A DNA stretch of 34,474 bases from Candidatus Tanganyikabacteria bacterium (GTDB lineage: Bacteria; Cyanobacteriota; Sericytochromatia; S15B-MN24; VGJW01). Location of the stretch: assembly GCA_016867235.1 (NCBI GenBank), contig VGJY01000025.1, positions 1 through 34,474 of the forward strand, given 5' to 3'. The position numbers and the translations under genes are program-made. Positions 2,477 to 32,234 of this stretch are shown here, piece by piece. Under the pieces are notes generated by a model. That model saw only the letters and a list, made by a program, of their open reading frames with translations, was not told where the DNA came from and did not search any database. How positions within the stretch are numbered: the stretch's first letter is position 1; each line of letters starts with the position of its first letter.

Positions 2477-2496
2477 CCCGCATAGCTTTCGTCGGC

Positions 2497-2528: not shown

Positions 2529-2541
2529 GGGGGGACACATT

Positions 2542-3603: not shown

Positions 3604-3645
3604 GTCGGGCGCCTGTTTCTCCCGGATGGTCTCTCTGGGCGCCCT

Positions 3646-4077: not shown

Positions 4078-4162
4078 GGGCAATCCTCCTCGAGTTAAGG
4101 CGAGACTAGGCTCAGTTTAAGACATGTGTTAACTTGGCACCGGATCGAGGAGGGTGCCGTCG

Positions 4163-15402: not shown

Positions 15403-15422
15403 GGCCGGCAGGGAAGCCGGCC
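15403..15422 (+). terminator. Hairpin directly after the citrate synthase stop codon
   Basis: GGCCGGC (15403-15409) and GCCGGCC (15416-15422) form a 7-bp stem around AGGGAA, starting at the base after the TGA stop. No T-run follows, so it may stabilise the mRNA end or act with Rho rather than being an intrinsic terminator. The rest of the gap to 15540 shows nothing recognisable. Confidence 0.35.
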
Positions 15423-15540
15423 CGACCCGAGGTGGCGCGCTGGTCTATATGAGCCATCCGCCGAGGCGCCGGGGATGCCCTCACAAGAGCCTACTCCGGG
15501 GGAGCCACCCTCCCGGATCGCAGGGCTGGCCGCAGCGCCG

Positions 15541-16521: not shown

Positions 16522-16634
16522 GCTCTCGCCAGCTACCTCCGCGCGTCCGCCTCTCGATATGGGGGTGATTGTCGGCGGAAATTCCCGAGAGGTTCTTAAC
16601 GCGAGGGAATGCTTTCATTAAGATAAACGACTTC

Positions 16635-16652
16635 TTGAATAACCAAATTCAA
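16635..16652. promoter_or_regulatory. Inverted repeat upstream of the kor-rnf gene run
   Basis: TTGAATAACCAAATTCAA is a perfect 6-bp dyad around AACCAA in an unusually AT-rich part of the 251-bp divergent gap between the phosphodiesterase and korA. Its TTG...CAA outline and 18-bp length recall Rex (NADH/NAD+) boxes and, more loosely, FNR/CRP-type sites, which would make sense upstream of a redox operon. A second palindrome, GGAAATTTCC, lies at 16674-16683. No clear -35/-10 pair was found. The assignment to a regulator is speculative. Confidence 0.35.
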
Positions 16653-16772
16653 CGCCCCGGCCGCCCGTAAACGGGAAATTTCCTGATTCACCCCTAGGTA
16701 CTTGCCCTCTAAGCTGGTGCCCGAGGCTCGTACGAAGTGCCGCAAGCCTCTTCACGCGGGAGTCCACACCAG

Positions 16773-18650
16773 ATGCCTGAAACGGCCGCGGTCGAGAAGA
16801 CCTGCCAGACCCTGACCCGGCAGACCCACACGCTCGAGATCGTGAGCGACTCGGGAGAGGGCGCGCAGAAGTGCGGCCAGATCTTCGGCCGCGTCAGCGC
16901 CCGCATGGGCAACGGCGTGTGGACGGTCGAGATCATCCCGGCCGAGATCCAGCCGCCGGCCCGCCACCCGACCAGCGCGAGCGGCAACCGCGTGCGCATC
17001 GGGACTGGCCAGGTGACCAACTGGGGCGATGCGGCCGACCTGGTGGTGGCCTTCAACGAGCAGGTCCTGCTGCAACGGCATCGCCTGGGCGCCCTCGCCC
17101 GGGGCGCCATCATCCTGCTCGAGAGCATGTGGGAGAACCACGACGACCCGGACATCCGCGAAGCTCATGCGGCGGCCCTGGAGGAGATGAGTACCGGCGG
17201 CTATCGCTTCGTCATGGTGCCCATGGAGGAGCAATGCCTCCAGCTCGTCGACAACCCTCGCAAGGGCAAGAACATGTTCGCCCTGGGCATGCTCGCCTGG
17301 ATCTACTCCCGCGACATCGAGAAGATCAAGGAGCAGATCGCCTTCGAGTTTCGCAAGAAGCGCAAGGAGATCTACGAGAGCAACGTGACGCTGCTCGACG
17401 CCGGCTTCAAGTGGGCGGGCGAGAACCTCGACTTCCGCGTGGCGGTGCCGTCCGCGCCCTTCGATCGCCCGATGGTGGTGATGAACGGCAACCAGGCCGT
17501 CGCGATGGGCGCCATCGCCGCGGGCCTCGAACTCTGCTCGATGTACCCCATCACGCCCGCCACCTCCGCGTCCCACTACCTCTCGGAGATCATCGAGAAG
17601 TACGGCGGCATCGTCCACCAGGCCGAAGACGAGATCGCCGCCGCCGGCGTGGCCATCGGCGCCTCGTACGCGGGAAAGACCGCTTTCACCATCACTTCGG
17701 GCCCGGGCCTCGCCCTCAAGACCGAACTGCTGGGCCTGGCCATCATGACCGAGTTGCCGCTGGTCGTGGTGGACGTGCAACGCGGCGGGCCGTCCACCGG
17801 CCTGCCCACCAAGGTCGAGCAGGCGGACCTCCTGGCCGCCGTCTACGGCCAGACCGGCGACGCCCCGCACATCGTGCTCGCCCCGGCCACCATCGAGGAG
17901 TGCTTCACCGCGATGATCACCGCCCGGCGCCTGGCCGAGGCCTATCGCGGCGTCGTCCTGGTCCTCACCGACGCCAACCTCGCCACGGGCGTGCAACCCT
18001 TCCCGCGGCCCGTCCTCGACGAGCGCTTCTGCGGCCCGCCGCTGGATTTCGGCCCCGTGCCCGACGGCTTGCGCGCCTACGACTGGGATGCCGAGACCGG
18101 CGTGTCGCGCCGCTTCATCCCGGGCCAACCCGGCGGCATGCACACCGTCACCGGCCTGTCCCATGACGAGCACAGCCGCGTGGGCTACACGCCGGACGTC
18201 CACGAGCGGGGCTGCCTGATGCGCAGCCGCAAGCTCGCGGTGTTCCAGCAAACGCTCCTGCCGCCGGAGGTCCACGGCGACGAGTCGGGCGACCTGCTCG
18301 TGGTGGGCTGGGGTTCGACGCTGGGAGCCATCCAGGAGGCGGTGGACCGCGCCCGCGCCGACGGCCTCCGGGTGTCTTCGCTGCACCTCCGCTTCCTTTC
18401 ACCGCTCGAACCGGGCCTGCAAGCCATTTTCAGCCGGTTCCGGAAGGTGATGACCGTCGAGATCAACTACAGCGATACCGTGGGCGATCCCCACATCACC
18501 GCGGAGAATCGCCGCTACGGGCAGCTGGCCTGGTTGCTGCGGGCCGCAACCCTGGTCGACGTCGACTGCTGGACCCGCGTCCCGGGCGAGCCACTCCGGC
18601 CGGGCGACATCCACCGCGGCATCCTGGCGCAACTGGCGGCGTCGGTGTGA
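16773..18650 (+). CDS. korA: 2-oxoglutarate:ferredoxin oxidoreductase, gamma-alpha fused subunit
   Basis: 625 aa from the ATG at 16773, with GGGAG ten bases upstream; a GTG at 16737 would add 12 residues but has no ribosome binding site. The N-terminal ~200 residues are the gamma domain, starting LEIVSDSGEGAQKCG. The alpha part begins at about 236 with MNGNQAVAMGAIAAGLELC, followed by the hallmark YPITPAT near 257, HQAEDEIAAAGVAIGASYAG and SGPGLALKTE, then VQRGGPSTGLPTK. With KorB it oxidatively decarboxylates 2-oxoglutarate (or a related 2-oxoacid) to the acyl-CoA, reducing ferredoxin. The fused gamma-alpha layout is the KorA/ForA type. The stop is immediately followed by the korB ribosome binding site. 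Confidence 0.93.
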   Translation: MPETAAVEKTCQTLTRQTHTLEIVSDSGEGAQKCGQIFGRVSARMGNGVWTVEIIPAEIQPPARHPTSASGNRVRIGTGQVTNWGDAADLVVAFNEQVLLQRHRLGALARGAIILLESMWENHDDPDIREAHAAALEEMSTGGYRFVMVPMEEQCLQLVDNPRKGKNMFALGMLAWIYSRDIEKIKEQIAFEFRKKRKEIYESNVTLLDAGFKWAGENLDFRVAVPSAPFDRPMVVMNGNQAVAMGAIAAGLELCSMYPITPATSASHYLSEIIEKYGGIVHQAEDEIAAAGVAIGASYAGKTAFTITSGPGLALKTELLGLAIMTELPLVVVDVQRGGPSTGLPTKVEQADLLAAVYGQTGDAPHIVLAPATIEECFTAMITARRLAEAYRGVVLVLTDANLATGVQPFPRPVLDERFCGPPLDFGPVPDGLRAYDWDAETGVSRRFIPGQPGGMHTVTGLSHDEHSRVGYTPDVHERGCLMRSRKLAVFQQTLLPPEVHGDESGDLLVVGWGSTLGAIQEAVDRARADGLRVSSLHLRFLSPLEPGLQAIFSRFRKVMTVEINYSDTVGDPHITAENRRYGQLAWLLRAATLVDVDCWTRVPGEPLRPGDIHRGILAQLAASV

Positions 18651-18661
18651 GGGAGACAGTC

Positions 18662-19621
18662 ATGACGATGACGACACTGCAAGCCTGCTCGCTCCTGGGC
18701 TGCCCCATAGACGACCGCTTCCTCGCGGCCGACGACTACGCCGGTCCCTTGGCCCGCTGGTGCCCCGGCTGCGGCGATCACGCCATCCTCGCATCGGTGC
18801 GCCGGCTCTGCGAGAACCACCAGTTGCAGCCCGAACAGACGGTCTTCGTGTCGGGAATCGGCTGCTCGAGCCGCTTTCCCCACTACATGAAGACGTACGG
18901 CTTTCACGGCCTCCACGGCCGCGCGCTGCCGCTGGCACTGGGCGTGAAGCTGCGGCGGCCCGACCTGACGGTCTTCGTGTCCACCGGCGACGGCGACTGC
19001 TTCTCGATCGGCAGCGCCCACTGGCTGCACACCGTGCGCTACAACCCCGACATGGTCGTCATGGTGTTCGACAACAACGTCTACGGCCTCACCAAGAACC
19101 AGACGTCGCCCACCAGCCCGCAGGGGTACCCGTCCAACACGCAGCCCACGGGCGCGCTGCTGGGCCCGATGAACCCGCTCTCGGTCACCCTCGGCATCTC
19201 GGGCGCCTCCTTCGTGGCGCAGACATGCGACTGGCTCCCCGCGCACCTGGACGCCGTGCTGGAAAAGGCCTTCGCGCACCGCGGCCTGTCCTTCGTGCGC
19301 ATCCTGCAACGGTGTCCCGAGTACACCGACAAGATCTTCACCGAGGCGATGCGCAACCCCGACCGCGTCGAACTGCTGACCCACGAGGACGGCGTGGACC
19401 TGCCGCAACTGGCACGTACCTACCAGCACCAGACCAGGCACGACCCTTCGGACCTCCACCGGGCGCGCCAGCTGGCCGAATCGACCGACCGGTACCGGCT
19501 CGGCATCTTCTACCGGAATGCGGCCATGCCGGTCTACGAGCAGGTGCGAGCGGTGCCGGCCCGCAGCGCCGCCGAGCGCCTGGCCACCCTCGAGCTCGAA
19601 CTCGACAAGTACGCGGTCTAG
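18662..19621 (+). CDS. korB: 2-oxoglutarate:ferredoxin oxidoreductase, beta subunit
   Basis: 319 aa from the ATG at 18662, six bases after AGGGAG; the frame opens slightly earlier at GTG 18647, inside korA. It is the thiamine-diphosphate-binding subunit: WCPGCGDHAI with two Cys for the 4Fe-4S cluster, GIGCSSRFPHY, the ThDP motif GDGDCFSIG followed by FDNNVYGLTKNQTSPTS, and a C-terminal Kor-type tail (FYRNAAMPVYEQVR). No ferredoxin-like delta subunit is encoded next to it, so a separate ferredoxin must accept the electrons. It is co-transcribed with korA, 11 bp apart. Confidence 0.94.
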   Translation: MTMTTLQACSLLGCPIDDRFLAADDYAGPLARWCPGCGDHAILASVRRLCENHQLQPEQTVFVSGIGCSSRFPHYMKTYGFHGLHGRALPLALGVKLRRPDLTVFVSTGDGDCFSIGSAHWLHTVRYNPDMVVMVFDNNVYGLTKNQTSPTSPQGYPSNTQPTGALLGPMNPLSVTLGISGASFVAQTCDWLPAHLDAVLEKAFAHRGLSFVRILQRCPEYTDKIFTEAMRNPDRVELLTHEDGVDLPQLARTYQHQTRHDPSDLHRARQLAESTDRYRLGIFYRNAAMPVYEQVRAVPARSAAERLATLELELDKYAV

Positions 19622-19639: not shown

Positions 19640-20629
19640 ATGACCGTCACGACAACCGACCGCGGCGCTCGCGCCCTGGAAGCCCTCGCGGGCCCGCTGG
19701 ACGAGTTCGGCGGAGCGCTGCGCGCCACCCGCGACGCCCTGCGCGCCCGCCTTCCGCGGGGAGAAGCGCCCGCCGAGCGGCTGGCGCAGCTTGCCGCCGA
19801 ACTCGGTCCCTTCGCCACCGGGCGCATCGACCTGGATCGCTTTGCCGCCCTCTTCGGCACGCAGGTCGCCCCCAGCGCCCCGGGCGCCGACGGCATCGCG
19901 CGTGCCGTGGCGGCCCTGGAAGCCTTGCTGGCCGAGGGCGATCAGCTGGTCAGACTGCGCGTCGCGCCCGGCGGCAGCCTGTATGACACGGTCAACAGGG
20001 GCCTTGAGCACGCGGGCGCGGCATTCGCCGCCGCCAGGGAGGCGCGGGCGCTGCTCGACGGCTCTGGCGACGCGCCGCGCGGCGAAGTCGGCGGCCTGGC
20101 GTTCCGCCACTGGAGCCGGGCCGAGCGCCGCCTGGCGCCGCCGCTCGTCGTCGAGGTCGCGGGTGCCGACCTGCGCGCCGGCGGCCTGGCCGAGTTCCTG
20201 GACGGCGGGGTCAAGATCGTGCTGCTGGTGGACGGCCCGAGCGCGCCCGCGCCGCTGGCGCGCCTGGTGGCGCCGGGCGTCTGGGTCCTGCAGACCGCCG
20301 ACGGGTCCGACCTCGACCGCTTCGCGGCCTGGCCCGGCCCCGGCATCGCGGCCTGGGTTTCCGCGGACGCGGCCGTCTTCTCCCACGACCCGGCGGGCGG
20401 CTTGGCCCCCTGGCAGCGGATCGCGGTCGCCAGCCTGCCCGAGGCGGCGCCCCGCAACCCCATCGGCGGGGCGAGCGTCGCCCAGCAGGTGGCCGAACTG
20501 CAGATCCTGGCAAGCCTGGCCCAGCGGCCAGAGGGCGGCGAGGCGGCCGCGCCGGCGGCCGATGGCGACACGGCCGGCAAGCTGGCCGCCTGGCTGCTGC
20601 GCAACGCCGACCTCTCCGGGTTGCCGTAG
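19640..20629 (+). CDS. Unknown Cys-free protein in the kor-rnf cluster
   Basis: 329 aa, 18 bp after korB, with AGGAG about nine bases before the ATG. I do not recognise the family. The N-terminal third is helical and Ala/Leu/Arg rich; the middle reads GSLYDTVNRGLEHAGAAF and VGGLAFRHWSRAERRLAPPL; the second half has a beta-alpha look (VKIVLLVDGPSAPAPLARL, VWVLQTADGSDLDRF). There is no cysteine, signal peptide or membrane segment, so it is not an Fe-S protein. VWVLQTADGSD and FSHDPAGGL weakly echo VFVLQSSQASP and LCYDPAAGP in the PFOR encoded two genes downstream. Its place between korB and rnfB suggests a scaffold, assembly or regulatory role for oxidoreductases; this is inference. Confidence 0.8.
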   Translation: MTVTTTDRGARALEALAGPLDEFGGALRATRDALRARLPRGEAPAERLAQLAAELGPFATGRIDLDRFAALFGTQVAPSAPGADGIARAVAALEALLAEGDQLVRLRVAPGGSLYDTVNRGLEHAGAAFAAAREARALLDGSGDAPRGEVGGLAFRHWSRAERRLAPPLVVEVAGADLRAGGLAEFLDGGVKIVLLVDGPSAPAPLARLVAPGVWVLQTADGSDLDRFAAWPGPGIAAWVSADAAVFSHDPAGGLAPWQRIAVASLPEAAPRNPIGGASVAQQVAELQILASLAQRPEGGEAAAPAADGDTAGKLAAWLLRNADLSGLP

Positions 20630-20686: not shown

Positions 20687-21550
20687 GTGAGCCTCGCGAC
20701 CATCGGCCTGGCGGCCCTCATCCTCGGGGCGGTGGGGCTCGCCTTCGCAGGATTGATAGGCCTGGTCCACCGCCGCTTCGCGGTGTGGGAGGATCCGCGC
20801 ATCGAGGGCGCCGTCTCGCTACTCCCGGGCAACAACTGCGGCGCGTGCGGCTTGCCGGGCTGCCGCGGCTTCGCGGAGGCGGTGGTCGGCGGGACGGTCA
20901 AGCCGGCCCAGTGCACGGTCCTGTCCGCGGACGGCGTCGACGAGCTGGCGGCCTACCTAGGGGTGGACGCCGGCGAGGCCAACAAGCGCGTCGCGCGCCT
21001 GGCCTGCGGCGGCGGCAGCGACATGGCGGTGATGCGAGCGCAGTACGTCGGGCTGCAGACCTGCAAGGCGGCCGCTGCGGTGGCCGGCGGCGGCAAGGGC
21101 TGCCCGTGGGCCTGCCTGGGCCTTGCCGACTGCGAGCGGGCCTGCACGTTCGACGCCATCTTCATGAACCCCGTCGGCCTGCCGGTCGTCGTCCCCGAGA
21201 AGTGTACGGCGTGCAACGACTGCGTCGTGGCCTGCCCCCGAGATCTGTTCTCGCTGCAGCCGCTCGATCAGAAGCTCATCGTCCAGTGCCGCAGCCTCCT
21301 GGCGGGCGAGCAGGCCGAGGCGCTCTGCCGGGTCGCCTGCAACGCCTGCGGCCGCTGCGTCGCCGACGCCGCGCCGGGGCTCATCTCCATCGTGGACAAC
21401 CTGGCGGTCGTCGATTACGCGAAGAACAAACTGGCCACGGCTGCCGCCACCGCGCGCTGCCCGACCGACTCCATCGTGTGGGTGGAAGGCCAGCAGTTCG
21501 ATCCGGCCCGCACCACGCCCGCGGGCCGCCTGGGAGTACCAGCCGAATGA
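20687..21550 (+). CDS. rnfB: Rnf complex subunit B (multi-cluster ferredoxin protein)
   Basis: 287 aa from a GTG at 20687, preceded by AGGAGG. Residues 1-25 form one membrane helix. Next is the RnfB-specific 4Fe-4S domain (NNCGACGLPGCRGFAEAV ... QC), then a two-cluster ferredoxin domain (CPWACLGLADCERAC ... CTACNDCVVACP), then a further Cys group, CRVACNACGRC. The extra C-terminal cluster puts it among the long RnfB forms rather than the short E. coli type. RnfB is the presumed entry point for electrons from reduced ferredoxin. Its stop overlaps the PFOR start as ATGA, and the other rnf genes follow only after that gene. Confidence 0.94.
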   Translation: MSLATIGLAALILGAVGLAFAGLIGLVHRRFAVWEDPRIEGAVSLLPGNNCGACGLPGCRGFAEAVVGGTVKPAQCTVLSADGVDELAAYLGVDAGEANKRVARLACGGGSDMAVMRAQYVGLQTCKAAAAVAGGGKGCPWACLGLADCERACTFDAIFMNPVGLPVVVPEKCTACNDCVVACPRDLFSLQPLDQKLIVQCRSLLAGEQAEALCRVACNACGRCVADAAPGLISIVDNLAVVDYAKNKLATAAATARCPTDSIVWVEGQQFDPARTTPAGRLGVPAE

Positions 21551-24500
21551 AACTCGCCGCCCGGCCGCAGTCCGCGCCAGCCGCCGCTCCGCCGCGATTC
21601 CCCGGAGTCCCGGCATTCACGGACGGCTGCGGCGCCGTCGTGGCGGTCGAGACGGCGGCGAGCGAGGGCGCCGGCGCCTATCCCATCACGCCGTCCACAC
21701 CCATGGGCGAGGGCTGGGCGCAAGCGGTCGCGGCCGGCAAGCGCAACGCGTTCGGCCGGCCCCTGGCATTCTTCGAACCGGAGGGCGAGCACGCCGCCGC
21801 CGCGGTCACGGCCGGCATGAGCATGACCGGGATGCGCGCCGCCAACTTCTCCTCCGGCCAGGGCATCGCGTACATGCACGAGTCGCTGTACGCCGCGGCC
21901 GGCAAGCGCCTGACGTACGTCCTGAGCGTGGCGGCGCGCGCCATGACCAAGCACGCGCTCAACGTCCACGCGGGCCATGACGATTACCACGCGGTGGACG
22001 ATACCGGCTTCTTCCAGCTTTTCGCGAAGAACCCCCAGGAAGCGGCCGACCTGACGGTGATCGCCCACCGCATCGCCGAACTCGCCCTCAACCCCGGCCT
22101 GGTGGCCCAGGACGGGTTTCTGACCAGCCACGTGGTGGAGTCGGTGCGGTTGCCCGAACCGGCCCTCGTGCGCGCCTACCTGGGCGATCCGGCCGACCTC
22201 ATCGACGCGCCGACGCCGGCGCAGCGCATGGTTTACGGCGAGAAACGCCGCCGCGTGCCCGCCGTGTTCGACGTCGACTTCCCGGCCGCACTCGGGCCGG
22301 TGCAGAACCAGGACGCCTACCAGCAGGGAGTGGCCGCGCAGCGGCCCTTCTTCTTCAACCACGTGCGCGAGTTCGCGGACCAGGCGTTCGAGGAGTATGC
22401 CGGTCTCACCGGGCGGCACTACGCGCGGGTCGAGGCGTACCGGGCGGACGATGCGGAGATCGTCCTGGTGGCCCAGGGGTCGGTCGTGTCGGACGCGCAG
22501 GCCGTGGCCGATCACCTCCGCGCGACGCGCAAGCTCAAGGTGGGCGTGCTGGGCCTGACGATGTTCCGGCCGTTCCCGGCCGACCTGCTCACGCGCCACC
22601 TGGCCGGCAAGAAGGCGGCGATCGTGCTGGAACGCGTGGATCAGCCGCTCGCGGTCGATCCCCCGCTGCTGCGCGAGATCCGCGCGGCGGCCTCCAAGGC
22701 CCTCGAGAATGCCCTGGCCGCGGGGCAGAGCCTGCCGTACCCGGACCTGGCAAAGATCCCGGCCGACCGCCAGCCGCGCTTCTTCTCCGGCTGCTTCGGC
22801 CTCGGGTCGCGCGACCTGCAACCGGGCGACCTTGTGGCCGCGGTCGAGAACGCGTTGCCCGGCGGGGCGGGCCGGCGGCACTTCTACCTTGGGGTCGAGT
22901 TCGTGCGGCAAGGCACGCGCCTGCCCAAGCTCCAGATCTGGCAGGAACAGTTGCTCGCGGGTTACCCGCACCTGGCGGATCTCGCCCTTCCGCCGGGCGC
23001 CAACCTGGACCTCCTACCCGCGGGATCGCTGGCGGTGCGCATCCACTCGGTGGGCGGCTGGGGTGCCATCACCATGGGCAAGAACCTCGGCGTCACGACG
23101 GCCGAACTGCTCGGCCGGCACCTCAAGGCCATGCCGAAGTACGGCTCCGAGAAGAAGGGCCAGCCCACGCTGTTCCACTTCATCGTCGCCCCCGAACCCG
23201 TGCGCCTCAACTGCGAAGTCAGGCACGTCGGCGCGGTGCTCTCGCCCGATCCCAACGTCTTCATGCACGGGGACCCTCTCGCCGGCCTGGCCGAGGGCGG
23301 CGCCTTCGTGGTGCAGAGCAACCTCCCGCCGGGCGAGTTGTGGGCCGCTATCCCGGCATGGGCGCGCCAGATCATCCTGGACCGGAAGGTTCGCGTCTTC
23401 GCCCTCGACGCGTTCCGCATCGCCACCGAGGAGGTCAGCGATCCGGGCCTGCGGTACCGGTTGCAGGCGGCGGCATTCATGGGTGCGTTCTTCGCGACGG
23501 GCGTCGATCCCGAAATCGCGGCCCTCGGCGAGGAGAAGGTGCTGGCCGGCATCCGGGAGCAGATCGCCCGCAAGTTCGGCGCGCAGGGAGATCGCGTCGT
23601 CGAGGACAACATGCGGGCCATCCGCCGGGGCTATGAAGAGGTCGTGCCAATCGAGTGCGCGCCGCTCGACATGGCCGGCGCCGCCGACGCCGCGGTGCCC
23701 GGGATCCCGCCGGAGCTCGATCGCCGCAAGGCGAGTGCCGGCTTTGCCAACCCCGGCCGGTTCTGGGAGCAGGTGGGACATCCGTGGAAGCTGGGCCAGG
23801 ACGGCATCGCCGATCCCTTCGCCGCGCTGTCGTTCATCCCGGCGGCTACCAGCACCATCCGCGACCTGACGTTCATCCGCTTCGAGGTACCGCAGTTCGT
23901 CGCCGACAAGTGCACCGGTTGTGGCCAGTGCTGGACGCAGTGCCCCGACTCGGCCATCCCCGGCGTGGTCACCTCGCCCCAGGATCTCCTCGGGGCCGCG
24001 ATCAAGACCCTCGCACAGGACGGGCGCAGCTTCGACAGGCTCAAGGCCGTGGTCCGGCCCGTTGCGGCGGCGGCCCGCGGCCTGCTCGCGGAGAAGTGGC
24101 CGCTGCCGGTCGGCGAGCTATTCGCGGAGGCCTACAAGCAGACCACCGCCAAGCTCGAGTTCGACGCCGAGAAGCAGGCCGCCCTGGATGCCGAGTTCGC
24201 GCCGGTGCGGGAGGCCATCGCCCGGTTCCCGGTCGCACGGACCGCGCCGTTCTTCGACGTGCCCGAGGCAAACGAGAAGGGCAGCGGCGGCCTGCTCTCC
24301 ATCACCGTCAACCCGGAAGCCTGCAAGGGCTGCAACCTCTGCGTGGACGTCTGCCACGACGGCGCCCTGATCACCGTGCCGCAGGACGACCGGATGGATG
24401 CCAGCCTGCGGGCCAACTGGCGGCTCTGGCGCAACCTGCCCGAGACCCCCGACCGGTTCGTCAACGTCTCCAACCTGGCCGAGGGCATCGGCGTGTTGCC

Positions 24501-26625
24501 CACGCTGCTGCTCAAGCAGCGGATCTACGGCTCGCTGTGCCCCGGAGACGGCGCCTGCATGGGCTGCGGCGAGAAGACCGGCGTACACCTGGTGCTCTCG
24601 GCGGTAAACGCCCTGCTGCTGCCCCGGGTCGAGAAGTACGTCGCGCGCCTGCGCGACCTGTCGGCCCGCCTCGACGAGATGGCCCGCAAGCACCTGGCGG
24701 CCGGCGCCGATCTGGCGGCGATCGCCCGGGGCGCGGAAGCGGCGCCCGGCACGACCCCGGCCGACGCAGGGGCCGCGCGGCGCATCGCCCGCATCAAGGC
24801 CGACGTGGACGATCTCGTGTGGCGCTACGAAGCGGGCCCCGGCGGGCGAGGCCGGGCGAACGCGGGCATCGCGAACGCCACCGGCTGTTCCAGCGTCTGG
24901 GGAAGCACGTGGCCCCTCAACCCGTACCCGATCCCGTGGGTCAACCACCTCTTCCAGGATGCGCCTTCCCTGGCCATCGGCCTCTTCGAGGGGCAGATGC
25001 GGAAGATGGCTGCGGGCTTCGCCGCCGTCCGCCGCGCCGAACTCGAAGTGGCGGGCCAGTACGACCCGGCCGAGCACGACCCGGAACTGGCCACGCTGGG
25101 GTGGCAATCCTTCACCCCAGAAGAGTTCGACCTGTGCCCGCCGATCTTCGCGGTGGGCGGCGACGGCGCGATGCTCGACATCGGCTTCCAGAACCTCTCG
25201 CGCCTGCTCGCCTCGGGCAAGCCCATCCGCGTGCTGATCCTCGACACGCAGGTGTACTCCAACACGGGCGGCCAGGCCTGCACGAGCGGCTTCACCGGCC
25301 AGGTTAGCGACATGGCGGGCTACGGCGCGGCGCAACGCGGCAAGGAAGAGGTGCGCAAGGAGGCCGCCCTGCTCGCCATGGCGCACCGCGACGTTTTCGT
25401 GCTGCAATCGTCGCAGGCCTCTCCCGCCCACCTCATCGGCGGCACGCTGCGGGCGCTGCAGGCCCGGAGGCCGTCGGTCGTCATCCTCCATTCGCCCTGC
25501 CCGCCCGAGCACGGCATCGGCGACGAAGCCGCCGAGCGCGCGGCGCGGCTGGCCCTCGAAAGCCGGGCCTTCCCCCTGCTGTGCTACGACCCGGCCGCCG
25601 GCCCCGCGCTAGCCGACCGGCTAAACCTGGACGGCAACCCGCAGGTGGGAGAGTTGTGGCCGACCTACGAGCTGGCCTACCTGGCTGATGACGGGTCGGG
25701 GCAGCGCATGGAGCTACCGCTCACCACCGCCGACTGGGCGGCCACCGAGGGGCGGTTCCGGCAGCACTTCGCGCCGCTCTCCGCGGAGGCCGACGCGGTG
25801 CCGTTCCACGAATACCTGGAGCTGCCGGCCGACGATCGCGAGGGCAAGACGCCTTTCATCTACCTGCTCGGCGCGGGCCGCAAGCTCGACCGTCTGGCCG
25901 TCGCCGCCGAGATCGTGCGTCTGGCCGAGGATCGTCGCGACTGCTGGCGCCTGCTCGAGGAGATGGCGGGGCTGCGGCTCGCGCCTTCGGTCGAGCAGGC
26001 CGCCAGGGCGGCGCTGGCCAGCGAGTGGCAGGCGAAGGTGGATGCCTTGCGGGCCGAGTACGAGGCTCGGCTGGCCGAGTTCCGCCGCGAGTACCCGGCG
26101 AAGGTGGCGCGGCGCCTGGCCGAGGGCCTGGTGCGCGCCGGCGACCTCGACCCGTCGGTCGCCGCCATGCTGTCGCGGGTGGGTTCGCTGGCCGATCTCG
26201 AACCCGTGGCAGGCTGGGGCGAGCCGGCACCCGGCGGCAACGGCGGCGGCCCGGCCCGCGAGAGTGCGCCCCCCCGCGTGGCCGCCGCGACGGTCGAGGC
26301 GCCGCCGGCCCCCTCGGCTCCCGCGGCCGCCCCGGAGGCCGCGTCCGCCCCCGCACCGGCCGCCGACGCCGGGATCGGCCTCGACCCGTACATCGAGACC
26401 GAGCGGTGCACCAGTTGCGACGAGTGCACGCGACTCAACAAGCGCATGTTCGCCTACGACGCCCAGAAGCAGGCCTACATCAAGGATGCGACCGCGGGCA
26501 CGTTCCGCGACCTGGTCATGGCCGCCGAGAAGTGCCCGGTGCGCATCATCCACCCCGGCACCCCGCTGAATCCCGGCGAGAAGGACCTCGCCAAGTGGGT
26601 CAAGCGGGCCGAGCCCTTCAACTAG
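21547..26625 (+). CDS. Pyruvate:ferredoxin oxidoreductase with C-terminal ferredoxin domain
   Basis: 1692 aa, about 500 more than homodimeric PFOR/NifJ. The start is the ATG overlapping the rnfB stop; the open frame further upstream is only a shadow of rnfB. Parts in order: pyrimidine-binding domain with YPITPST (45); transketolase-C-like region; gamma domain with GGWGAITMGKNLG (about 500); two 4Fe-4S clusters, CTGCGQCWTQCP (788) and CKGCNLCVDVC (926); ThDP domain with CMGCGEKTG (1003), NATGCSSVWG and GGDGAMLDIGFQN (1204), interrupted by a helical insertion after 1020; a helical region; a Pro/Ala linker (about 1558-1614); and a ferredoxin-like domain with CTSCDEC (1621) and a distant Cys-Pro (1663). 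It should oxidise pyruvate to acetyl-CoA and pass electrons to its tethered domain and on to Rnf. Confidence 0.9.
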   Translation: MKLAARPQSAPAAAPPRFPGVPAFTDGCGAVVAVETAASEGAGAYPITPSTPMGEGWAQAVAAGKRNAFGRPLAFFEPEGEHAAAAVTAGMSMTGMRAANFSSGQGIAYMHESLYAAAGKRLTYVLSVAARAMTKHALNVHAGHDDYHAVDDTGFFQLFAKNPQEAADLTVIAHRIAELALNPGLVAQDGFLTSHVVESVRLPEPALVRAYLGDPADLIDAPTPAQRMVYGEKRRRVPAVFDVDFPAALGPVQNQDAYQQGVAAQRPFFFNHVREFADQAFEEYAGLTGRHYARVEAYRADDAEIVLVAQGSVVSDAQAVADHLRATRKLKVGVLGLTMFRPFPADLLTRHLAGKKAAIVLERVDQPLAVDPPLLREIRAAASKALENALAAGQSLPYPDLAKIPADRQPRFFSGCFGLGSRDLQPGDLVAAVENALPGGAGRRHFYLGVEFVRQGTRLPKLQIWQEQLLAGYPHLADLALPPGANLDLLPAGSLAVRIHSVGGWGAITMGKNLGVTTAELLGRHLKAMPKYGSEKKGQPTLFHFIVAPEPVRLNCEVRHVGAVLSPDPNVFMHGDPLAGLAEGGAFVVQSNLPPGELWAAIPAWARQIILDRKVRVFALDAFRIATEEVSDPGLRYRLQAAAFMGAFFATGVDPEIAALGEEKVLAGIREQIARKFGAQGDRVVEDNMRAIRRGYEEVVPIECAPLDMAGAADAAVPGIPPELDRRKASAGFANPGRFWEQVGHPWKLGQDGIADPFAALSFIPAATSTIRDLTFIRFEVPQFVADKCTGCGQCWTQCPDSAIPGVVTSPQDLLGAAIKTLAQDGRSFDRLKAVVRPVAAAARGLLAEKWPLPVGELFAEAYKQTTAKLEFDAEKQAALDAEFAPVREAIARFPVARTAPFFDVPEANEKGSGGLLSITVNPEACKGCNLCVDVCHDGALITVPQDDRMDASLRANWRLWRNLPETPDRFVNVSNLAEGIGVLPTLLLKQRIYGSLCPGDGACMGCGEKTGVHLVLSAVNALLLPRVEKYVARLRDLSARLDEMARKHLAAGADLAAIARGAEAAPGTTPADAGAARRIARIKADVDDLVWRYEAGPGGRGRANAGIANATGCSSVWGSTWPLNPYPIPWVNHLFQDAPSLAIGLFEGQMRKMAAGFAAVRRAELEVAGQYDPAEHDPELATLGWQSFTPEEFDLCPPIFAVGGDGAMLDIGFQNLSRLLASGKPIRVLILDTQVYSNTGGQACTSGFTGQVSDMAGYGAAQRGKEEVRKEAALLAMAHRDVFVLQSSQASPAHLIGGTLRALQARRPSVVILHSPCPPEHGIGDEAAERAARLALESRAFPLLCYDPAAGPALADRLNLDGNPQVGELWPTYELAYLADDGSGQRMELPLTTADWAATEGRFRQHFAPLSAEADAVPFHEYLELPADDREGKTPFIYLLGAGRKLDRLAVAAEIVRLAEDRRDCWRLLEEMAGLRLAPSVEQAARAALASEWQAKVDALRAEYEARLAEFRREYPAKVARRLAEGLVRAGDLDPSVAAMLSRVGSLADLEPVAGWGEPAPGGNGGGPARESAPPRVAAATVEAPPAPSAPAAAPEAASAPAPAADAGIGLDPYIETERCTSCDECTRLNKRMFAYDAQKQAYIKDATAGTFRDLVMAAEKCPVRIIHPGTPLNPGEKDLAKWVKRAEPFN

Positions 26626-26635
26626 CGAGGCGAGC

Positions 26636-27991
26636 GTGATCCAGTTTGGCAGTGTGTGGGTCACTCCCGGGTCAAGCCCGGGGTTCCGTCATGGGGTCCA
26701 CCCGCCCGAAAACAAGGAACTGACCGAGCACCTGCCGATCCGGCGCCTGCCGTATCCCGCCGAGGTGGTGATCCCCCTGCGGCAGCACACGGGCAAGCCG
26801 GCGCGGGCGGTCGTGCGGGCGGGCCAGCACGTCGAACGCGGGGACGTGATCGCCGAGGCCGACGGCTTCGTGTCGGTGCCCATGCACGCCTCGGCGGCCG
26901 GCCGCGTGGTCGAGGTGGGGCTCTGGCCGCATCCCGACGGCTCCTGGTCGCCGGCGGTGCGCATCGCCGTCGATCCCTTCTCGGCGCAGATCGAGCGGCC
27001 GCGCCTGGTACCCGCCTGGGAGCCGCTCACCCCCAAGGAGGTGGGCGCCGCCATCCAGCAGGCCGGCCTGGTGGGCCTGGGCGGCGCGGCGTTCCCGACT
27101 CACGTGAAACTGGCGCCGCCGCCCGACGTCACGCTCGATACCCTGGTGGTCAACGGCTGCGAGTGCGAGCCGTACCTCACCACCGATCACCGCACGATGG
27201 TCGAGTACGCCGAAAGGGTCCACATGGGCGTCCGCATCTTGCTGAAGGCCCTTGGCGTCTCCCGGGCGCTGATCGGCGTCGAGCGCAACAAGCCCGACGC
27301 CATCGCGGCCCTGCAGCGCACGCGGCCCGCCGATCTGCCGGTCGAAGTGGTACCCCTGGAGGTCAAGTATCCGCAGGGCGCCGAGAAGATGCTCATCAAG
27401 ACCCTCCTGGGCCGAGAGGTGCCGTCGGGCAAGCTCCCGATGCACGTGGGCGTGGTGGTCCAGAACGTGGGCTCGGTGGCCACGGTGGCGGAGGTCTTCG
27501 AGACGCGGCTTCCCCTGGTCGAGCGCATCGTGACCGTCACGGGACGCGGCGTGCGCCAGCCCGCCAACCTCATCGTGCCCATCGGCACGAAGCTGCGCGA
27601 TCTGCTGGAGGCGTGCGGCGGCCTGGCGCCCGACGCGGGCGAGGTGATCTTCGGCGGGCCCATGATGGGCGTCGCGCAGGCCTCGCTCGACGTGCCCGTG
27701 CTCAAGGGCACGACGGGCGTGGTGGTGCTGTCGCGAGACGACGTGAAGGTCCAGGAGCAGCATCCGTGCATCCGGTGCGGGCGCTGCATCGAGGCCTGCC
27801 CGATGCTACTCAACCCGCAGATGCTGGGCCGCCTGGCCAAGGCCGGCAAGTACGAGGACATGCCGGCCTACCACCTGGCCGACTGCGTCCTGTGCGGTTG
27901 CTGCTCCTACGCCTGCCCGTCCAACATCCCGCTCCCGCAGCTGTTCGTGGCGGCGCGGGGCGCGCTCCGCAAGCAGCAGGCCTCCGCATGA
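26636..27991 (+). CDS. rnfC: Rnf complex subunit C (NADH-binding, 4Fe-4S)
   Basis: 451 aa from a GTG at 26636 with GAGGCGAG just upstream. It follows the family pattern: FRHGVHPPENKELT near the N-terminus, biotinyl-lipoyl-like FVSVPMHASAAGRVVEV, a Nuo51-like FMN/NAD domain (GLGGAAFPTHVKL, NGCECEPYLTTDHR), a SLBB region, and two 4Fe-4S motifs, CIRCGRCIEACP and CVLCGCCSYACP. RnfC carries electrons to NAD+ on the cytoplasmic face. The first ~17 residues are unusual because a GC-rich palindrome lies in their codons. It overlaps rnfD by ATGA. Confidence 0.96.
   Translation: MIQFGSVWVTPGSSPGFRHGVHPPENKELTEHLPIRRLPYPAEVVIPLRQHTGKPARAVVRAGQHVERGDVIAEADGFVSVPMHASAAGRVVEVGLWPHPDGSWSPAVRIAVDPFSAQIERPRLVPAWEPLTPKEVGAAIQQAGLVGLGGAAFPTHVKLAPPPDVTLDTLVVNGCECEPYLTTDHRTMVEYAERVHMGVRILLKALGVSRALIGVERNKPDAIAALQRTRPADLPVEVVPLEVKYPQGAEKMLIKTLLGREVPSGKLPMHVGVVVQNVGSVATVAEVFETRLPLVERIVTVTGRGVRQPANLIVPIGTKLRDLLEACGGLAPDAGEVIFGGPMMGVAQASLDVPVLKGTTGVVVLSRDDVKVQEQHPCIRCGRCIEACPMLLNPQMLGRLAKAGKYEDMPAYHLADCVLCGCCSYACPSNIPLPQLFVAARGALRKQQASA
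26666..26682. repeat. Palindrome inside the 5' end of rnfC
   Basis: CCCGGG-TCAAG-CCCGGG forms a 6-bp hairpin at codons 11-16 of rnfC, with TCACT before and GTTCCGTCATG after. The core resembles the small dispersed palindromic repeats known from intergenic DNA of alphaproteobacteria. Here it is read in frame as TPGSSPG, before the conserved RnfC sequence begins. It may also influence translation of the early mRNA. Confidence 0.5.
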
Positions 27992-29001
27992 GCGCACCGC
28001 ACCTGGTCGTCACGGCCTCGCCGCACCTGGCCGGCAAGCTGACCACGCCCGGCGTGATGTGGCAGGTGGTCCTGAGCCTCGCGCCCGTGGTGGCGGCCGC
28101 CACGTACTTCTTCGGGATCAGCGCCTTGCTGGTGATCGCGGCGTCCATCGCCGGCGCCGCGGCCACCGAGGCGGCTTTCGGGCGCCGGGGCACGCTGCGC
28201 GACGGGTCGGCCGTGGTCTGCGGTATCTTGCTCGGGCTGACGCTGCCGGCCGGCCTGCCGCTCTGGATGGCGTTCGTTGGAGCCGTTTTCGGCATCGGCG
28301 TGGGCAAGGCGGTGTTCGGCGGCCTCGGCCAGAACCCGTTCAATCCCGCCTTGCTCGGACGCGCCTTCCTGCAAGCCGCGTTCCCGGTGGCCATCACCAC
28401 CTTCCCGCCGCCGGGCGGGCGGGCGTGGTGGCACCTGGCGGGAGACAACTTCGCCCTCCCGCTGATGCGCTCCGGCGTGGACGCGATCACCGCCGCCACG
28501 CCCCTGGGCCTGATGAAGTTCGAGCGGCAAGGCACCGAACTGTGGGCCCTGGCGATCGGCAACACCGGCGGATCGCTCGGCGAGACGGCCGGGATCGTGA
28601 TCGTGGTCTGCGGCGCCTATCTGGTCTGGCGCGGCCTGATGAACTGGCGCATCCCGGCCAGCATCCTGCTGACGGTGGCGCTGTTCGCCGGCGCGCTCAA
28701 CCTCCTGGCGCCGGACAAGTTCCCGGGGGCCCCGTTCATGCTGCTGTCGGGGGGGTTGCTGCTCGGGGCGATCTTCATGGCCACCGATCCGGTGACCAGT
28801 CCCACTACCGGCCGCGGTTGCTGGCTGTTCGGGATCGGCATCGGCTTGCTGGTCGTGATCATCCGGCTCTGGGGCGGCCTCAACGAGGGCGTCATGTACG
28901 CCATCTTGCTGATGAACGCACTGGTGCCGTTCATCGAGCGCATCAGCCAGCCCGTGCCCTTCGGGAAGGCCGCGGCCAGGCCCGCGGGGAAGCAGTCATG
29001 A
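27988..29001 (+). CDS. rnfD: Rnf complex subunit D (membrane flavoprotein)
   Basis: 337 aa from the ATG at 27988, which overlaps the rnfC stop. It is a polytopic NqrB/RnfD family membrane protein; the start LVVTASPHLAGKLTTPGVMW is family-like. Many hydrophobic helices are seen, with GLGQNPFNPALLGRAFL in a conserved loop. The covalent FMN site is DAITAATPLG, with Thr171 as acceptor, corresponding to the TxATPL motif of other RnfD proteins. Near the end, IFMATDPVTSPTTGRGCWLFG and GGLNEGVMYAILLMNALVPFIER are conserved. Flavinylation would be done by the ApbE encoded at the end of the run. It helps form the ion-translocating core. Confidence 0.96.
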   Translation: MSAPHLVVTASPHLAGKLTTPGVMWQVVLSLAPVVAAATYFFGISALLVIAASIAGAAATEAAFGRRGTLRDGSAVVCGILLGLTLPAGLPLWMAFVGAVFGIGVGKAVFGGLGQNPFNPALLGRAFLQAAFPVAITTFPPPGGRAWWHLAGDNFALPLMRSGVDAITAATPLGLMKFERQGTELWALAIGNTGGSLGETAGIVIVVCGAYLVWRGLMNWRIPASILLTVALFAGALNLLAPDKFPGAPFMLLSGGLLLGAIFMATDPVTSPTTGRGCWLFGIGIGLLVVIIRLWGGLNEGVMYAILLMNALVPFIERISQPVPFGKAAARPAGKQS

Positions 29002-29702
29002 GCGAACCGGTCCTCGCGCCGCCTGGCGCGCCGCCCCCCGAGGCGCCTCTCGCCCCGCCGGCTGAGGCGGCCGAGACCGGGAAGGTCCCGGCCGGCGTGC
29101 TGCTCGGCGTTTCCGGCGCGATCGCCGGCCTGCTCATCGCCGGCGTGTTCGGCGCGGCCGAGCCCACCATCCTGGCCAATCGCCAGGCCCGGCTGGAAAA
29201 GGCGGTCGTCGAGGTCCTGGCGTCGCCCGAGAAGTTCGAGCGGTTGTACGTGATCGGCGGAGGCCTGGCGCGCGAGGTGCCGGCCGGAACCGATCCCAAG
29301 GGAATCGAGTCGGTCTACCTCGGCTACGGTCCGCAAGGTAAGCGGCTGGGCTTTGCCGTCGTGGCGGCCGGGCCAGGGTTCCAGGACACCATCCGGCTGA
29401 TCTACGGCTACGATCCGGCCGGCAAGCGCCTCACCGGCATGAAAGTGCTGGAGTCCAAGGAGACGCCCGGCCTGGGCGACAAGATCGAGAAGGATGCGAG
29501 CTTCGTCGGCCAGTTCGTCGGCCGCCTGGCGCCGCTCCTGGGCGTCAAGCCCAAGGCCAAGGGTTCCGACGAGCCGAACGCCATCGTGATGATCACCGGC
29601 GCGACCATCTCGTCGCGCGCGATCGTCCGCATCATCAACACCTCGCTCGCCCGGATGGGCCCGATGCTGCACGGCTACTGGGACGCGGAGACCCGGCGAT
29701 GA
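28998..29702 (+). CDS. rnfG: Rnf complex subunit G (covalent FMN protein)
   Basis: 234 aa from the ATG at 28998, overlapping the rnfD stop. A Pro/Ala/Glu-rich cytoplasmic N-terminus of about 30 residues precedes one membrane helix (GVLLGVSGAIAGLLIAGVFG). The periplasmic FMN-binding domain follows, with YGYDPAGKRLTGMKVLESKETPGLGDKI and the flavinylation motif MITGATISSRAI, Thr203 being the acceptor attached by ApbE. It is slightly longer than usual because of the Pro-rich N-terminus. After it comes a 124-bp gap, the only sizeable one within the rnf genes. Confidence 0.95.
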   Translation: MSEPVLAPPGAPPPEAPLAPPAEAAETGKVPAGVLLGVSGAIAGLLIAGVFGAAEPTILANRQARLEKAVVEVLASPEKFERLYVIGGGLAREVPAGTDPKGIESVYLGYGPQGKRLGFAVVAAGPGFQDTIRLIYGYDPAGKRLTGMKVLESKETPGLGDKIEKDASFVGQFVGRLAPLLGVKPKAKGSDEPNAIVMITGATISSRAIVRIINTSLARMGPMLHGYWDAETRR

Positions 29703-29791
29703 GTCGGTCACCAGCCGCCCCGAAACCTGTTCACGAGCCCCTCGCCGGGCAGGGATGCCCGGCGGACCGTCACGGACGGCCCAGCGGGGGG

Positions 29792-29821
29792 CCTCGGGGG
29801 GGCGGCACCCCCCCGAGGAGG
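29792..29821 (+). promoter_or_regulatory. Hairpin overlapping the rnfE ribosome binding site
   Basis: CCTCGGGGGGG (29792-29802) pairs perfectly with CCCCCCCGAGG (29808-29818) around CGGCA, an 11-bp, nearly all-GC stem. The last three bases of the right arm are the first half of the AGGAGG (29816-29821) that lies five bases before the rnfE GTG. If the stem folds, that site is partly hidden. No T-run follows, so it is not an intrinsic terminator. Confidence 0.6.
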
Positions 29822-29826
29822 CTCTA

Positions 29827-30498
29827 GTGAGCAAGACCACCGCGCGGGAGGATCTGGTCCGCGGCGTCTGGCGCGAGAACCCCGTGCTCGTGCAGATGCT
29901 CGGCCTGTGCCCGGCCCTGGCCGTGACCAACACCGTCGAGAACAGCCTGGTCATGGCCGCGGCCACGACCTTCGTGCTCCTGTGCTCGAGCCTGCTGGTG
30001 TCGCTGGTCCGCCGCATCGTGCCTGGCCAGGTACGCATCACCACGTACATCCTGATCATCGCGACGTTCGTCACCGTGGCCGACATCGGCCTGGAAGCGC
30101 TGCTGCCGGACGTCCACAAGGCCCTCGGGGCCTTCGTGGCCCTGATCGTGGTCAACTGCATCATCCTGGGGCGCCAGGAAGCTTTCGCCTCGCGCAACGG
30201 CGTCTGGCGGTCGCTCCTCGACGCGGCCGGCACGAGCGTCGGCTTCCTGATCGCGATGCTGCTCATGGGGTCGGTGCGCGAGATCCTGGGTTCGGGCACG
30301 TTCCTGGGCCACGCGGTGTTCGGCAAGAACTTCGAGCCGTGGGTCGTCATGGTGCTGCCGCCCGGCGGCTTCTTCACCATCGGCCTGCTGCTCCTGGCCC
30401 TGGCCTGGTGGGAACGGCGGAAGGCCGCGCGGCTGGCCGCGCCGGCAGCCGGCGCGCCGGCCTCGGAAACGCGCGAACTGGTCGGGGGGGCCCGGTAG
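29827..30498 (+). CDS. rnfE: Rnf complex subunit E (membrane)
   Basis: 223 aa from a GTG at 29827, five bases after AGGAGG; the open frame back to 29755 lacks family-like sequence. It belongs to the RnfE/NqrD family of six-helix membrane proteins: RENPVLVQMLGLCPALAVTNT, LVMAAATTFVLLCSSLLVS, VNCIILGRQEAFAS and GSVREILGSGTF. Cys28 and Cys111 sit in the two half-helix repeats that, with their RnfA counterparts, bind an iron centre in the membrane. A basic, Ala-rich tail of about 25 residues follows the last helix. It abuts rnfA with no spacing. Confidence 0.96.
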   Translation: MSKTTAREDLVRGVWRENPVLVQMLGLCPALAVTNTVENSLVMAAATTFVLLCSSLLVSLVRRIVPGQVRITTYILIIATFVTVADIGLEALLPDVHKALGAFVALIVVNCIILGRQEAFASRNGVWRSLLDAAGTSVGFLIAMLLMGSVREILGSGTFLGHAVFGKNFEPWVVMVLPPGGFFTIGLLLLALAWWERRKAARLAAPAAGAPASETRELVGGAR

Positions 30499-31077
30499 AT
30501 GGCGGAACTGGCGATCATCTTCGTCTCGGCGCTGCTCATCAGCAACTTCACGCTGGCGATGTTCCTCGGACTGTGTCCGTTCCTGGGCGTCTCCAAGCAG
30601 ATCCCCACGGCGCTCCGGATGGGCGCGGCCGACATCTTCGTGCTGACCCTGACGTCGGTTTGCGCCTGGGCGCTCAACACCTACGTCCTGCCCCACGCGC
30701 CCTACTTGCGGCTCATCACCTTCATCATCGTCATCGCCTCGCTCGTGCAGATCGTCGAGATGGTGATCAAGAAGCTCAGCCCCACGCTGTTTCGCGAGCT
30801 AGGCATCTACCTGCCGCTCATCACCACCAACTGCGCGGTGCTGGGGCTCGCGATGTTCCAGACCAATCGCGGCTACGGCCTGATCGAGGGCCTGGTGTTC
30901 GCCGTAGGGGCGGGTCTCGGGCTCACGCTGGCCCTGGTGATGATGGCGTCGCTGCGTGAGACCCTCGACCTGGCCGACGTTCCGAAGGTGGCACAGGGCA
31001 CGGCCCTGGTCTTCCTGGTCGCGGGCTGCCTGTCGCTGGCGTTCATGGGCTTCGCCGGCCTGCTGAGTGCGGGGTAG
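30499..31077 (+). CDS. rnfA: Rnf complex subunit A (membrane)
   Basis: 192 aa; the ATG directly follows the rnfE stop. It is an RnfA/NqrE family six-helix membrane protein: ALLISNFTLAMFLGLCPFLGVSK (Cys26), LITTNCAVLGLAMF (Cys112) and ASLRETLDLADVPK. The two Cys match those of RnfE; together they ligate the intramembrane [2Fe-2S] centre known from NqrD/NqrE and Rnf structures. It shares the inverted-topology pseudo-symmetry with RnfE. It completes a B-(PFOR)-C-D-G-E-A gene order. Confidence 0.96.
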   Translation: MAELAIIFVSALLISNFTLAMFLGLCPFLGVSKQIPTALRMGAADIFVLTLTSVCAWALNTYVLPHAPYLRLITFIIVIASLVQIVEMVIKKLSPTLFRELGIYLPLITTNCAVLGLAMFQTNRGYGLIEGLVFAVGAGLGLTLALVMMASLRETLDLADVPKVAQGTALVFLVAGCLSLAFMGFAGLLSAG

Positions 31078-31084: not shown

Positions 31085-31246
31085 ATGGGAACGGGCGATC
31101 TAATCGGAATCGTGGCCTGCGCCGCGCTGTTCGTGGCGTTCGGCCTGCTGTATCGGGGCCGCGGCGGAGGAGCTTGCGGCGGCAGTTGCGGCGCGTGCGG
31201 GGACAAGCCCCCGGAGCGGTGCCGCTCGGAGGTCGATCATGCGTGA
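31085..31246 (+). CDS. Small Cys-rich membrane protein, NqrM-like
   Basis: 53 aa, seven bases after the rnfA stop, with GCGAG before the ATG. The layout is one N-terminal membrane helix (LIGIVACAALFVAFGLLY), a short basic stretch (RGRGG), then a Cys motif ACGGSCGACGDKPPERC with Cys31, 35, 38 and 46. Size, topology and Cys tail resemble NqrM (DUF539), the factor needed to mature the iron site of Na+-NQR, whose gene often lies beside apbE. Here it lies between rnfA and apbE, overlapping apbE by eight bases. FeoB-associated Cys-rich proteins are an alternative. A role in building the RnfA/RnfE iron centre is inferred. Confidence 0.75.
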   Translation: MGTGDLIGIVACAALFVAFGLLYRGRGGGACGGSCGACGDKPPERCRSEVDHA

Positions 31247-32234
31247 ACGCAACCCCGTGCTGGGCCGGCGGGACTTCGTCGTCCTGGGCGTCGGCGCCTT
31301 CGTGGCGCTGGCGTTGCCCTTTGCCTGGGCGCGGCCTGGGTTGTTGCGACGGCAGGTCCCGGTGATGGGCACCATCGCGGAGTTCGCCGTGGCGGCCGGC
31401 GGGCTGCCGGGCGAGCGCGAACGGGCGCAGCGCGCCATCGACGCGGCCATCGCCGAGTTGCTGGACGTCGAGCGACGCATGACGCGCTTCGAGGCCGGCT
31501 CGGACGTCTCGCGGGCCAACGAGGGAGCGGCGCGGGCGCCCGTAGAGATCGGCCGGGATACCGGCCTCGTGCTGCGCGAAGCCCTGCGCTGGGCGCGCGC
31601 CACGGACGGCCGGTTCGATCCGGCGCTCGGCCGAGCCACGGCGCTCTGGGATGTCGCGCGGCGCAAGTCGCCGCCGCCCGCCGCGCTGTTCACGCGGCTC
31701 GCCGGCCGCGACCTGTATCGCGCGGTCAGCCTGGCCGGCGATCTCGACCGGCCGGCGGTGCGGTTCGAGGATGCCGACGTGGCGCTGGATCTGGGCGGCA
31801 TCGCAAAGGGCTACGGCGTGGATCGGGCGGCCGCGGCGTTGCGGTCGCATGGCGTCGAGAACGCGCTGATCAACGTGGGCGGCGATCTGGTGGCCCTGGG
31901 TGCCGCACCGGGCGAGGATCACTGGCGGGTCGGCGTCCGGTCGCCGCAGGCCCCCGGCGCGCTGGCGGGCGAACTGGCCGTCCGCGACATCGCGGTGGCC
32001 ACCTCGGGAGACTACGAGCAGTTCTTCGCGTACGGCGGCAGGCGGTACCACCACCTGCTGGATCCCGAGACCGGCGCGCCGCGCCTCGCTTCCTTCCACA
32101 GCGTGACCGTCGAGGCCCCCACGTGCATGGCCGCCGACGCGGGCGCCACGGCCGTCTTCGGCCTCCCGCCGGCCGCGGCCGGCCGCCTCCTGGCCCTCGC
32201 CGCGCCGGGGGCGCGGGTGGCGAGCGTGGTGTAG
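31239..32234 (+). CDS. apbE: FAD:protein FMN transferase ApbE
   Basis: 331 aa from the ATG at 31239, seven bases after GGAGG and overlapping the preceding small gene. The N-terminus (GRRDFVVLGVGAFVALALPFAWA) looks like a Tat signal, so the enzyme acts outside the cytoplasm, where RnfG and RnfD present their acceptor Thr. Motifs are VMGTIAEF, ERRMTRFEAGSDVSRAN, ALDLGGIAKGYGVD, NVGGD, ATSGDYEQFF and HHLLDPETG; the last two are typical of the FAD/Mg2+ site. It transfers FMN from FAD onto Thr residues of Rnf flavoproteins. It ends the collinear run that begins at korA. Confidence 0.95.
   Translation: MRERNPVLGRRDFVVLGVGAFVALALPFAWARPGLLRRQVPVMGTIAEFAVAAGGLPGERERAQRAIDAAIAELLDVERRMTRFEAGSDVSRANEGAARAPVEIGRDTGLVLREALRWARATDGRFDPALGRATALWDVARRKSPPPAALFTRLAGRDLYRAVSLAGDLDRPAVRFEDADVALDLGGIAKGYGVDRAAAALRSHGVENALINVGGDLVALGAAPGEDHWRVGVRSPQAPGALAGELAVRDIAVATSGDYEQFFAYGGRRYHHLLDPETGAPRLASFHSVTVEAPTCMAADAGATAVFGLPPAAAGRLLALAAPGARVASVV

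Follow-up and report, generated by a model that had tools for sequence, protein, structure and literature searches.

A single-chain pyruvate:ferredoxin oxidoreductase (PFOR) of 1692 amino acids (aa) that carries a ferredoxin domain at its C-terminus on a leash predicted to be disordered is encoded within an rnf operon (21547..26625; open reading frame with ATG start) on the contig analyzed here, a stretch of 34,474 nucleotides from a Candidatus Tanganyikabacteria bacterium (GenBank: GCA_016867235.1, contig VGJY01000025.1, positions 1 to 34,474; hereafter, the window; all features are on the + strand unless noted). With moderate confidence, we read this protein (hereafter, PFOR-ferredoxin) as a PFOR dedicated to Rnf, of which the leashed ferredoxin passes electrons between the PFOR clusters and RnfB. 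An earlier note, made from the sequence of the window, had described such a PFOR with a tethered ferredoxin and had tied the tail to RnfB encoded just upstream; the description was borne out by the full PFOR domain set, a Pfam match in the tail, and the predicted fold, and the protein proved to belong to a widespread family, not to be a local oddity.

The POR_N, PFOR_II, POR gamma, dicluster, and thiamine diphosphate (ThDP) domains were all detected with Pfam in the order of PFOR, namely domain I (POR_N; residues 40-214, 21664..22188, including T48, E81, and R131), domain II (PFOR_II; residues 303-385, 22453..22701), the gamma/POR domain (residues 503-697, 23053..23637), the two cluster motifs of domain V (motif 1, C789-C799, 23911..23943; motif 2, C926-C936, 24322..24354; both with Pfam Fer4 and the family alignment), and the ThDP domain core (residues 1098-1345, 24838..25581, with GDG at 1205-1207 and N1239, assigned with Pfam and the alignment; TPP_C at residues 1199-1312). 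The CxxC of the proximal cluster (C1004/C1007; 24556..24567) and its remaining ligands, C1114 and C1318, were assigned by alignment, the fourth ligand (C1318) with the PFOR of Desulfovibrio africanus (DaPFOR). Residues T31, E64, R114, and N996 of DaPFOR, its pyruvate/ThDP residues, were aligned with T48, E81, R131, and N1239. All 12 core-cluster cysteines (three [4Fe-4S] clusters) were kept, and C789-799, C926-936, and C1004/1007/1114/1318 were invariant in the family alignment. With its catalytic residues and cluster ligands conserved, the window PFOR looks, on sequence, catalytically intact and is probably an active pyruvate:ferredoxin oxidoreductase. Domain order, catalytic residues, and the proximal and two domain-V clusters are shared with DaPFOR (1b0p/7plm) and the PFOR of Moorella thermoacetica (6cin), whereas the window protein differs from single-chain PFOR/NifJ by 82 additional aa between CxxC and NATGC and by an extra C-terminal region, the leash, and the ferredoxin; within the modelled part, identity is about 20%. 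Two further cysteines of the ThDP domain (C1197 and C1245) were also invariant in the long-form family and lie outside the identified cluster ligands.

The structure of residues 493-1692 was predicted with AlphaFold2 from 48 sequences (mean predicted local distance difference test score (pLDDT), 77.8; predicted template modelling score, 0.75). A long helix (residues 1480-1530, 25984..26136) is followed by an Ala/Pro leash (residues 1546-1609, 26182..26373), which was assigned with AlphaFold2, composition, and alignment and consists to 81% of P/A/G/E/S (pLDDT, 32-50); the Pro/Ala linker claimed earlier thus stood as a disordered leash, with a length of 64 aa rather than about 55. The chain ends in a single [4Fe-4S] ferredoxin domain with a conserved C-tail (residues 1610-1692, 26374..26622; Pfam, alignment, and AlphaFold2), predicted as folded with pLDDT of about 86-92 and a ferredoxin-like strand/helix pattern. 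The Pfam family Fer4_13 was matched at residues 1617-1669 with 27.3 bits (cut-off, 24.5), and the nearest solved relative of the last 102 residues was D. africanus ferredoxin I (E = 2e-6). When the whole 1200-residue model was searched with Foldseek, the best matches were all PFOR (TM-score, about 0.48), and ferredoxins were not among these whole-model matches. The tail shares with D. africanus ferredoxin I, which is of the Fer4_13 type, the single-[4Fe-4S] CxxCxxC...C pattern and differs in being tethered, in an extra conserved C-tail (HPGxP...KWxKR), and in being far less acidic: the net charge of the ferredoxin core was -2 (family median) versus -13 for the same stretch of ferredoxin I, only two free ferredoxins having been compared. 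The low charge fits a tethered partner without need of long-range electrostatic capture. The ThDP domain holds a helical insert (residues 1008-1113, 24568..24885, with helices at 1008-1049 and 1071-1095; AlphaFold2 and alignment), which had been noticed earlier at about 1020-1090 and proved to extend over about 1008-1100; it widens the spacing from CxxC to NATGC to 100 aa, versus exactly 18 aa in all 18 sampled canonical NifJ.

To collect relatives, GTDB genomes were scanned with an alignment of three sequences; 365 relatives were confirmed, the best 80 were taken further, and Gemmatirosa and Persicobacter were added from plasmid records. Since the best-80 cut favours full-length relatives, members of the clade without the fusion may be under-sampled, and two follow-up genome searches were aimed at those. 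Ten sequences were left out before counting, most of them cut by a contig end, one with a frameshifted tail (L049), and three with an irregular C-terminal or overall reading (L091, L111, and L122); the family alignment then contained 73 full-length proteins including that of the window. By record titles, the family spans at least eight phyla (Gemmatimonadota, Planctomycetota, Bacteroidota, Pseudomonadota, Myxococcota, Acidobacteriota, Verrucomicrobiota, Hydrogenedentota, and others). The four ferredoxin cysteines (C1621, C1624, C1627, and C1663), placed correctly in the earlier note, were kept in 73/73 members, and chance is therefore excluded. Mean pairwise identity in the family was 0.61 for the ferredoxin, 0.59 for the C-tail, and 0.20 for the unconserved leash. 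In the tree, the long forms constituted one clade on a long branch apart from NifJ, in which the window PFOR clustered with the Gemmatimonadota-type clade.

A complete rnfBCDGEA set stands beside the window PFOR: RnfB (20687..21550; with 20 cysteines conserved to at least 97% in the set), the stop codon of whose gene overlaps the PFOR start as ATGA (21547-21550), RnfC (26636..27991; TIGR01945, 524 bits), RnfD (27985..28998, start approximate; PF03116), RnfG (28998..29702), RnfE (29755..30498), and RnfA (30499..31077). This linkage is nearly universal in the family. Of 69 informative loci, 68 had rnfC at most 0.82 kb downstream of the PFOR-ferredoxin gene, with a median gap of 30 bp; the rnfCDGEA set was complete in 52/53 loci, and rnfB was present in the cluster in 67/67, scored by script as upstream in 48 and downstream in 18 and, by reading of the locus, upstream in L091 (scored 'none' because the match coordinates start early). 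That PFOR-ferredoxin substitutes for RnfB where rnfB seemed to be missing upstream, as in Persicobacter (L042), was considered and rejected, as rnfB was found downstream of the FNR-like gene. PFOR-core distances were correlated with those of RnfC (Spearman 0.93), RnfE (0.88), and RnfB (0.81); shared descent alone could give this correlation, which thus shows operon co-inheritance and not contact.

Two kinds of relatives served as natural controls. Five catalytic split relatives (L146-L149 and L151; about 660 + 540 aa, 43-46% alpha-domain identity) were all without the ferredoxin, without the insert (27-28 aa at this place), and, over the 11.6-18 kb that were read, without Rnf genes; these are two-subunit 2-oxoacid:ferredoxin oxidoreductase relatives, whose alpha domain is nearer to the PFOR-ferredoxin family than NifJ is. 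As the second kind, an operon that we call type 2 was found in 12 of 369 sampled gammaproteobacterial genomes (L143, L144, L145, and L173-L181; e.g., L144:3313-10981), with the gene order, complete where the contig allows, KorA, KorB, a dead ThDP half of 755-869 aa with the same ferredoxin tail, RnfB, a PFOR-like protein without ferredoxin (pseudo-PFOR), and RnfC-D-G-E-A; the ferredoxin-tail gene directly precedes rnfB. In 11/11 testable type-2 proteins, the pseudo-PFOR no longer has T48, E81, or N1239 or any of the four proximal cysteines, whereas the eight cysteines of domain V are all retained, as is the insert (120-126 aa). The tree placement of the L181 pseudo-PFOR is unsure because of its long branch, and in L143 the ferredoxin tail is out of frame with the dead half (frameshift or sequencing error). 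The ferredoxin and the insert thus track Rnf and not catalysis, both being absent in the split catalytic forms and kept in type-2 operons with a dead PFOR. Read parsimoniously, the link to Rnf is what the ferredoxin, the domain-V clusters, and the insert are for, and catalysis on the chain is dispensable where KorAB is present. The link between tail and RnfB that the earlier note had drawn gains support both from the operon linkage and from these type-2 loci.

From this material we infer the electron path, the mobility of the ferredoxin and its docking site, and the transfer to RnfB with its direction. Pyruvate would react at ThDP, the electrons would pass to the proximal cluster and on to the two domain-V clusters, and the C-terminal ferredoxin on its flexible leash would collect them there and dock on RnfB, which would feed Rnf, where NAD+ would be reduced and ions pumped. 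The helices inserted next to the proximal cluster would serve Rnf as an assembly or docking element and would have no part in catalysis. RnfB, the input module of the Rnf complex and here the operon partner of PFOR-ferredoxin, accepts ferredoxin electrons (PMC12174285). For the window genome we favour the oxidative direction, from pyruvate to acetyl-CoA, with wiring that could also run in reverse; the genes for KorA (2-oxoacid:acceptor oxidoreductase alpha-gamma; 16737..18650), KorB (ThDP subunit; 18647..19621), and citrate synthase (14149..15402) in the cluster fit such a flow. The window genome contains terminal oxidases, a canonical NifJ, and isocitrate lyase, and no pyruvate dehydrogenase (PDH) E1 above the cut-off was found in it. 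More tentatively, and with less than even confidence, we propose that PFOR-ferredoxin is stably built into a supercomplex of PFOR and Rnf that couples pyruvate oxidation (or synthesis) directly to ion pumping, and that its scaffold has decayed in Gammaproteobacteria to a catalytically dead electron wire (the pseudo-PFOR and the ferredoxin-carrying dead ThDP half) from KorAB to Rnf, a redox pseudoenzyme that would serve a respiratory pump as its input arm.

Several observations weigh against this oxidative, Rnf-dedicated assignment. One long form (L089, 9974-14887) had no Rnf genes within reach; genes for a transposase, a TIR protein, and repeat proteins are among its neighbours, so it may be displaced. 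Another possible electron partner, an FNR-like protein, is encoded in 38/53 loci. PDH E1 was present in 16/18 host genomes, and oxidative use of PFOR-ferredoxin is thus not obligatory.

The last of these points bears on a serious rival, that the same wiring runs in reverse, so that Rnf, driven by NADH and the ion gradient, reduces the leashed ferredoxin and the enzyme acts as a pyruvate synthase for acetyl-CoA assimilation. Hosts already equipped with PDH E1 for oxidation would be in line with it, as would haem-copper oxidases in 17/18 host genomes, by which a strong ion gradient could be kept, and isocitrate lyase was not found in 10/18. Rnf itself is reversible (PMC12174285). The window genome, however, has isocitrate lyase and lacks PDH E1 above the cut-off. 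Gene absences in metagenome-assembled genomes are weak evidence, and the presence of isocitrate lyase and PDH did not settle the direction; we regard the reverse direction as possible, though on the unlikely side.

That the tail serves other partners (the FNR-like protein, KorAB, or soluble enzymes), with the Rnf linkage a matter of metabolic co-regulation only, seems to us unlikely: the frequency of the FNR-like gene and the adjoining KorAB in the window and in Gemmatimonadota-type loci speak for it, but FNR and KorAB vary by lineage while RnfB and RnfC are essentially constant, and the type-2 ferredoxin gene stands directly before rnfB. The C-terminal domain VII of DaPFOR has been proposed to shield a cluster from O2, and the hosts here mostly carry genes for aerobic respiration, so a fixed or protective tail instead of a mobile carrier might be considered. 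We hold it to be quite improbable, given the invariant cluster ligands, a leash that is unconserved and predicted to be disordered, and the persistence of the ferredoxin on a different chain in type-2 operons, where no active PFOR site remains to be shielded. Finally, an ordinary NifJ with extra length common to its family is refuted, because, although the best NCBIfam model was TIGR02176 (NifJ equivalog), its score of 388 bits was below the cut-off of 911, so that we do not class the protein as a strict NifJ, a very long branch leads to the clade of the long forms, and the ferredoxin tail and the insert were absent from 18/18 sampled canonical NifJ, contrary to what the earlier note had named as the outcome against it.

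Between KorB and RnfB, the window encodes a protein of 329 aa without cysteine (19640..20629), for which no family match was obtained and which occupies the slot of the ferredoxin-carrying half-PFOR of type-2 operons. Its type is conserved at this place in Gemmatimonadota-type loci, which share it and KorAB with the window. In profile comparisons it matched the type-2 dead ThDP half (probability 94%, E = 1e-7) and, more weakly, the PFOR ThDP domain (81%, E = 1e-5); its predicted structure gave no significant PDB match, and many of the top matches were ThDP enzymes (E of at least 0.2). We tentatively regard it as a degenerate ThDP-type subunit. Downstream of rnfA, ApbE is encoded (31239..32234), an FMN transferase probably for RnfG/RnfD. 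By the cluster, two citrate synthase-type genes are divergent (12761-14074 on the - strand and 14149-15402 on the + strand), one of them fused to a MerR-type helix-turn-helix domain. Many of the rnf operons of the family end with the gene for an FNR/PetH-like reductase (e.g., L042:22082-22939), which might open a second route to NADP(H). On a Calditrichales contig (L062), two sets of rnf genes lie less than 20 kb apart (409-4815 and 15027-19331), one with PFOR-ferredoxin.

By kinship, the host belongs to the cyanobacterial phylum. Genes for the photosystem II reaction centre were found in 2/3 relatives of the phylum tested outside its class and in 0/5 tested genomes of its own class. Because RnfC above the cut-off was found in no other genome of the class, and because of the gene affinities to Gemmatimonadota, the data suggest that the rnf operon with PFOR-ferredoxin was acquired laterally. 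That the window contig is a contaminant was rejected, since its GC content (0.709; other contigs, 0.67-0.71) and tetranucleotide correlation (0.80-0.90) fit the genome.

PFOR, single-cluster ferredoxins, and Rnf are each already known. In pyruvate:NADP+ oxidoreductase, a PFOR likewise has a redox partner fused at its C-terminus; there, the partner resembles cytochrome P450 reductase and is a flavin module leading to NADP+, whereas the window protein carries a ferredoxin and is encoded next to a membrane pump. CarE of Acetobacterium woodii, an EtfA with an N-terminally fused ferredoxin-like domain, has been proposed as a specific adaptor for its physiological partner (PMC5861303); a ferredoxin-like domain fused to an enzyme is common to both, and the difference is that the enzyme is unrelated and the CarE domain is N-terminal with two clusters. 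PFOR goes unmentioned in a 2025 review of Rnf/Nqr, and in the open-access literature searched, with most subscription papers outside the search, we found no description of a fused PFOR-ferredoxin, of PFOR within rnf operons, or of pseudo-PFOR operons.

If our reading is true, 2-oxoacid oxidoreductases are widely joined to the Rnf pump, independently of the free ferredoxin pool, in lineages mostly with genes for aerobic respiration, where PFOR together with Rnf is unexpected. The fused chain would be a natural construct for solving the docking of the ferredoxin on RnfB, and the pseudo-PFOR operons offer a direct test of the separation between catalysis and electron wiring. In many aerobic bacteria, pyruvate chemistry thus seems to be wired firmly into a membrane pump.

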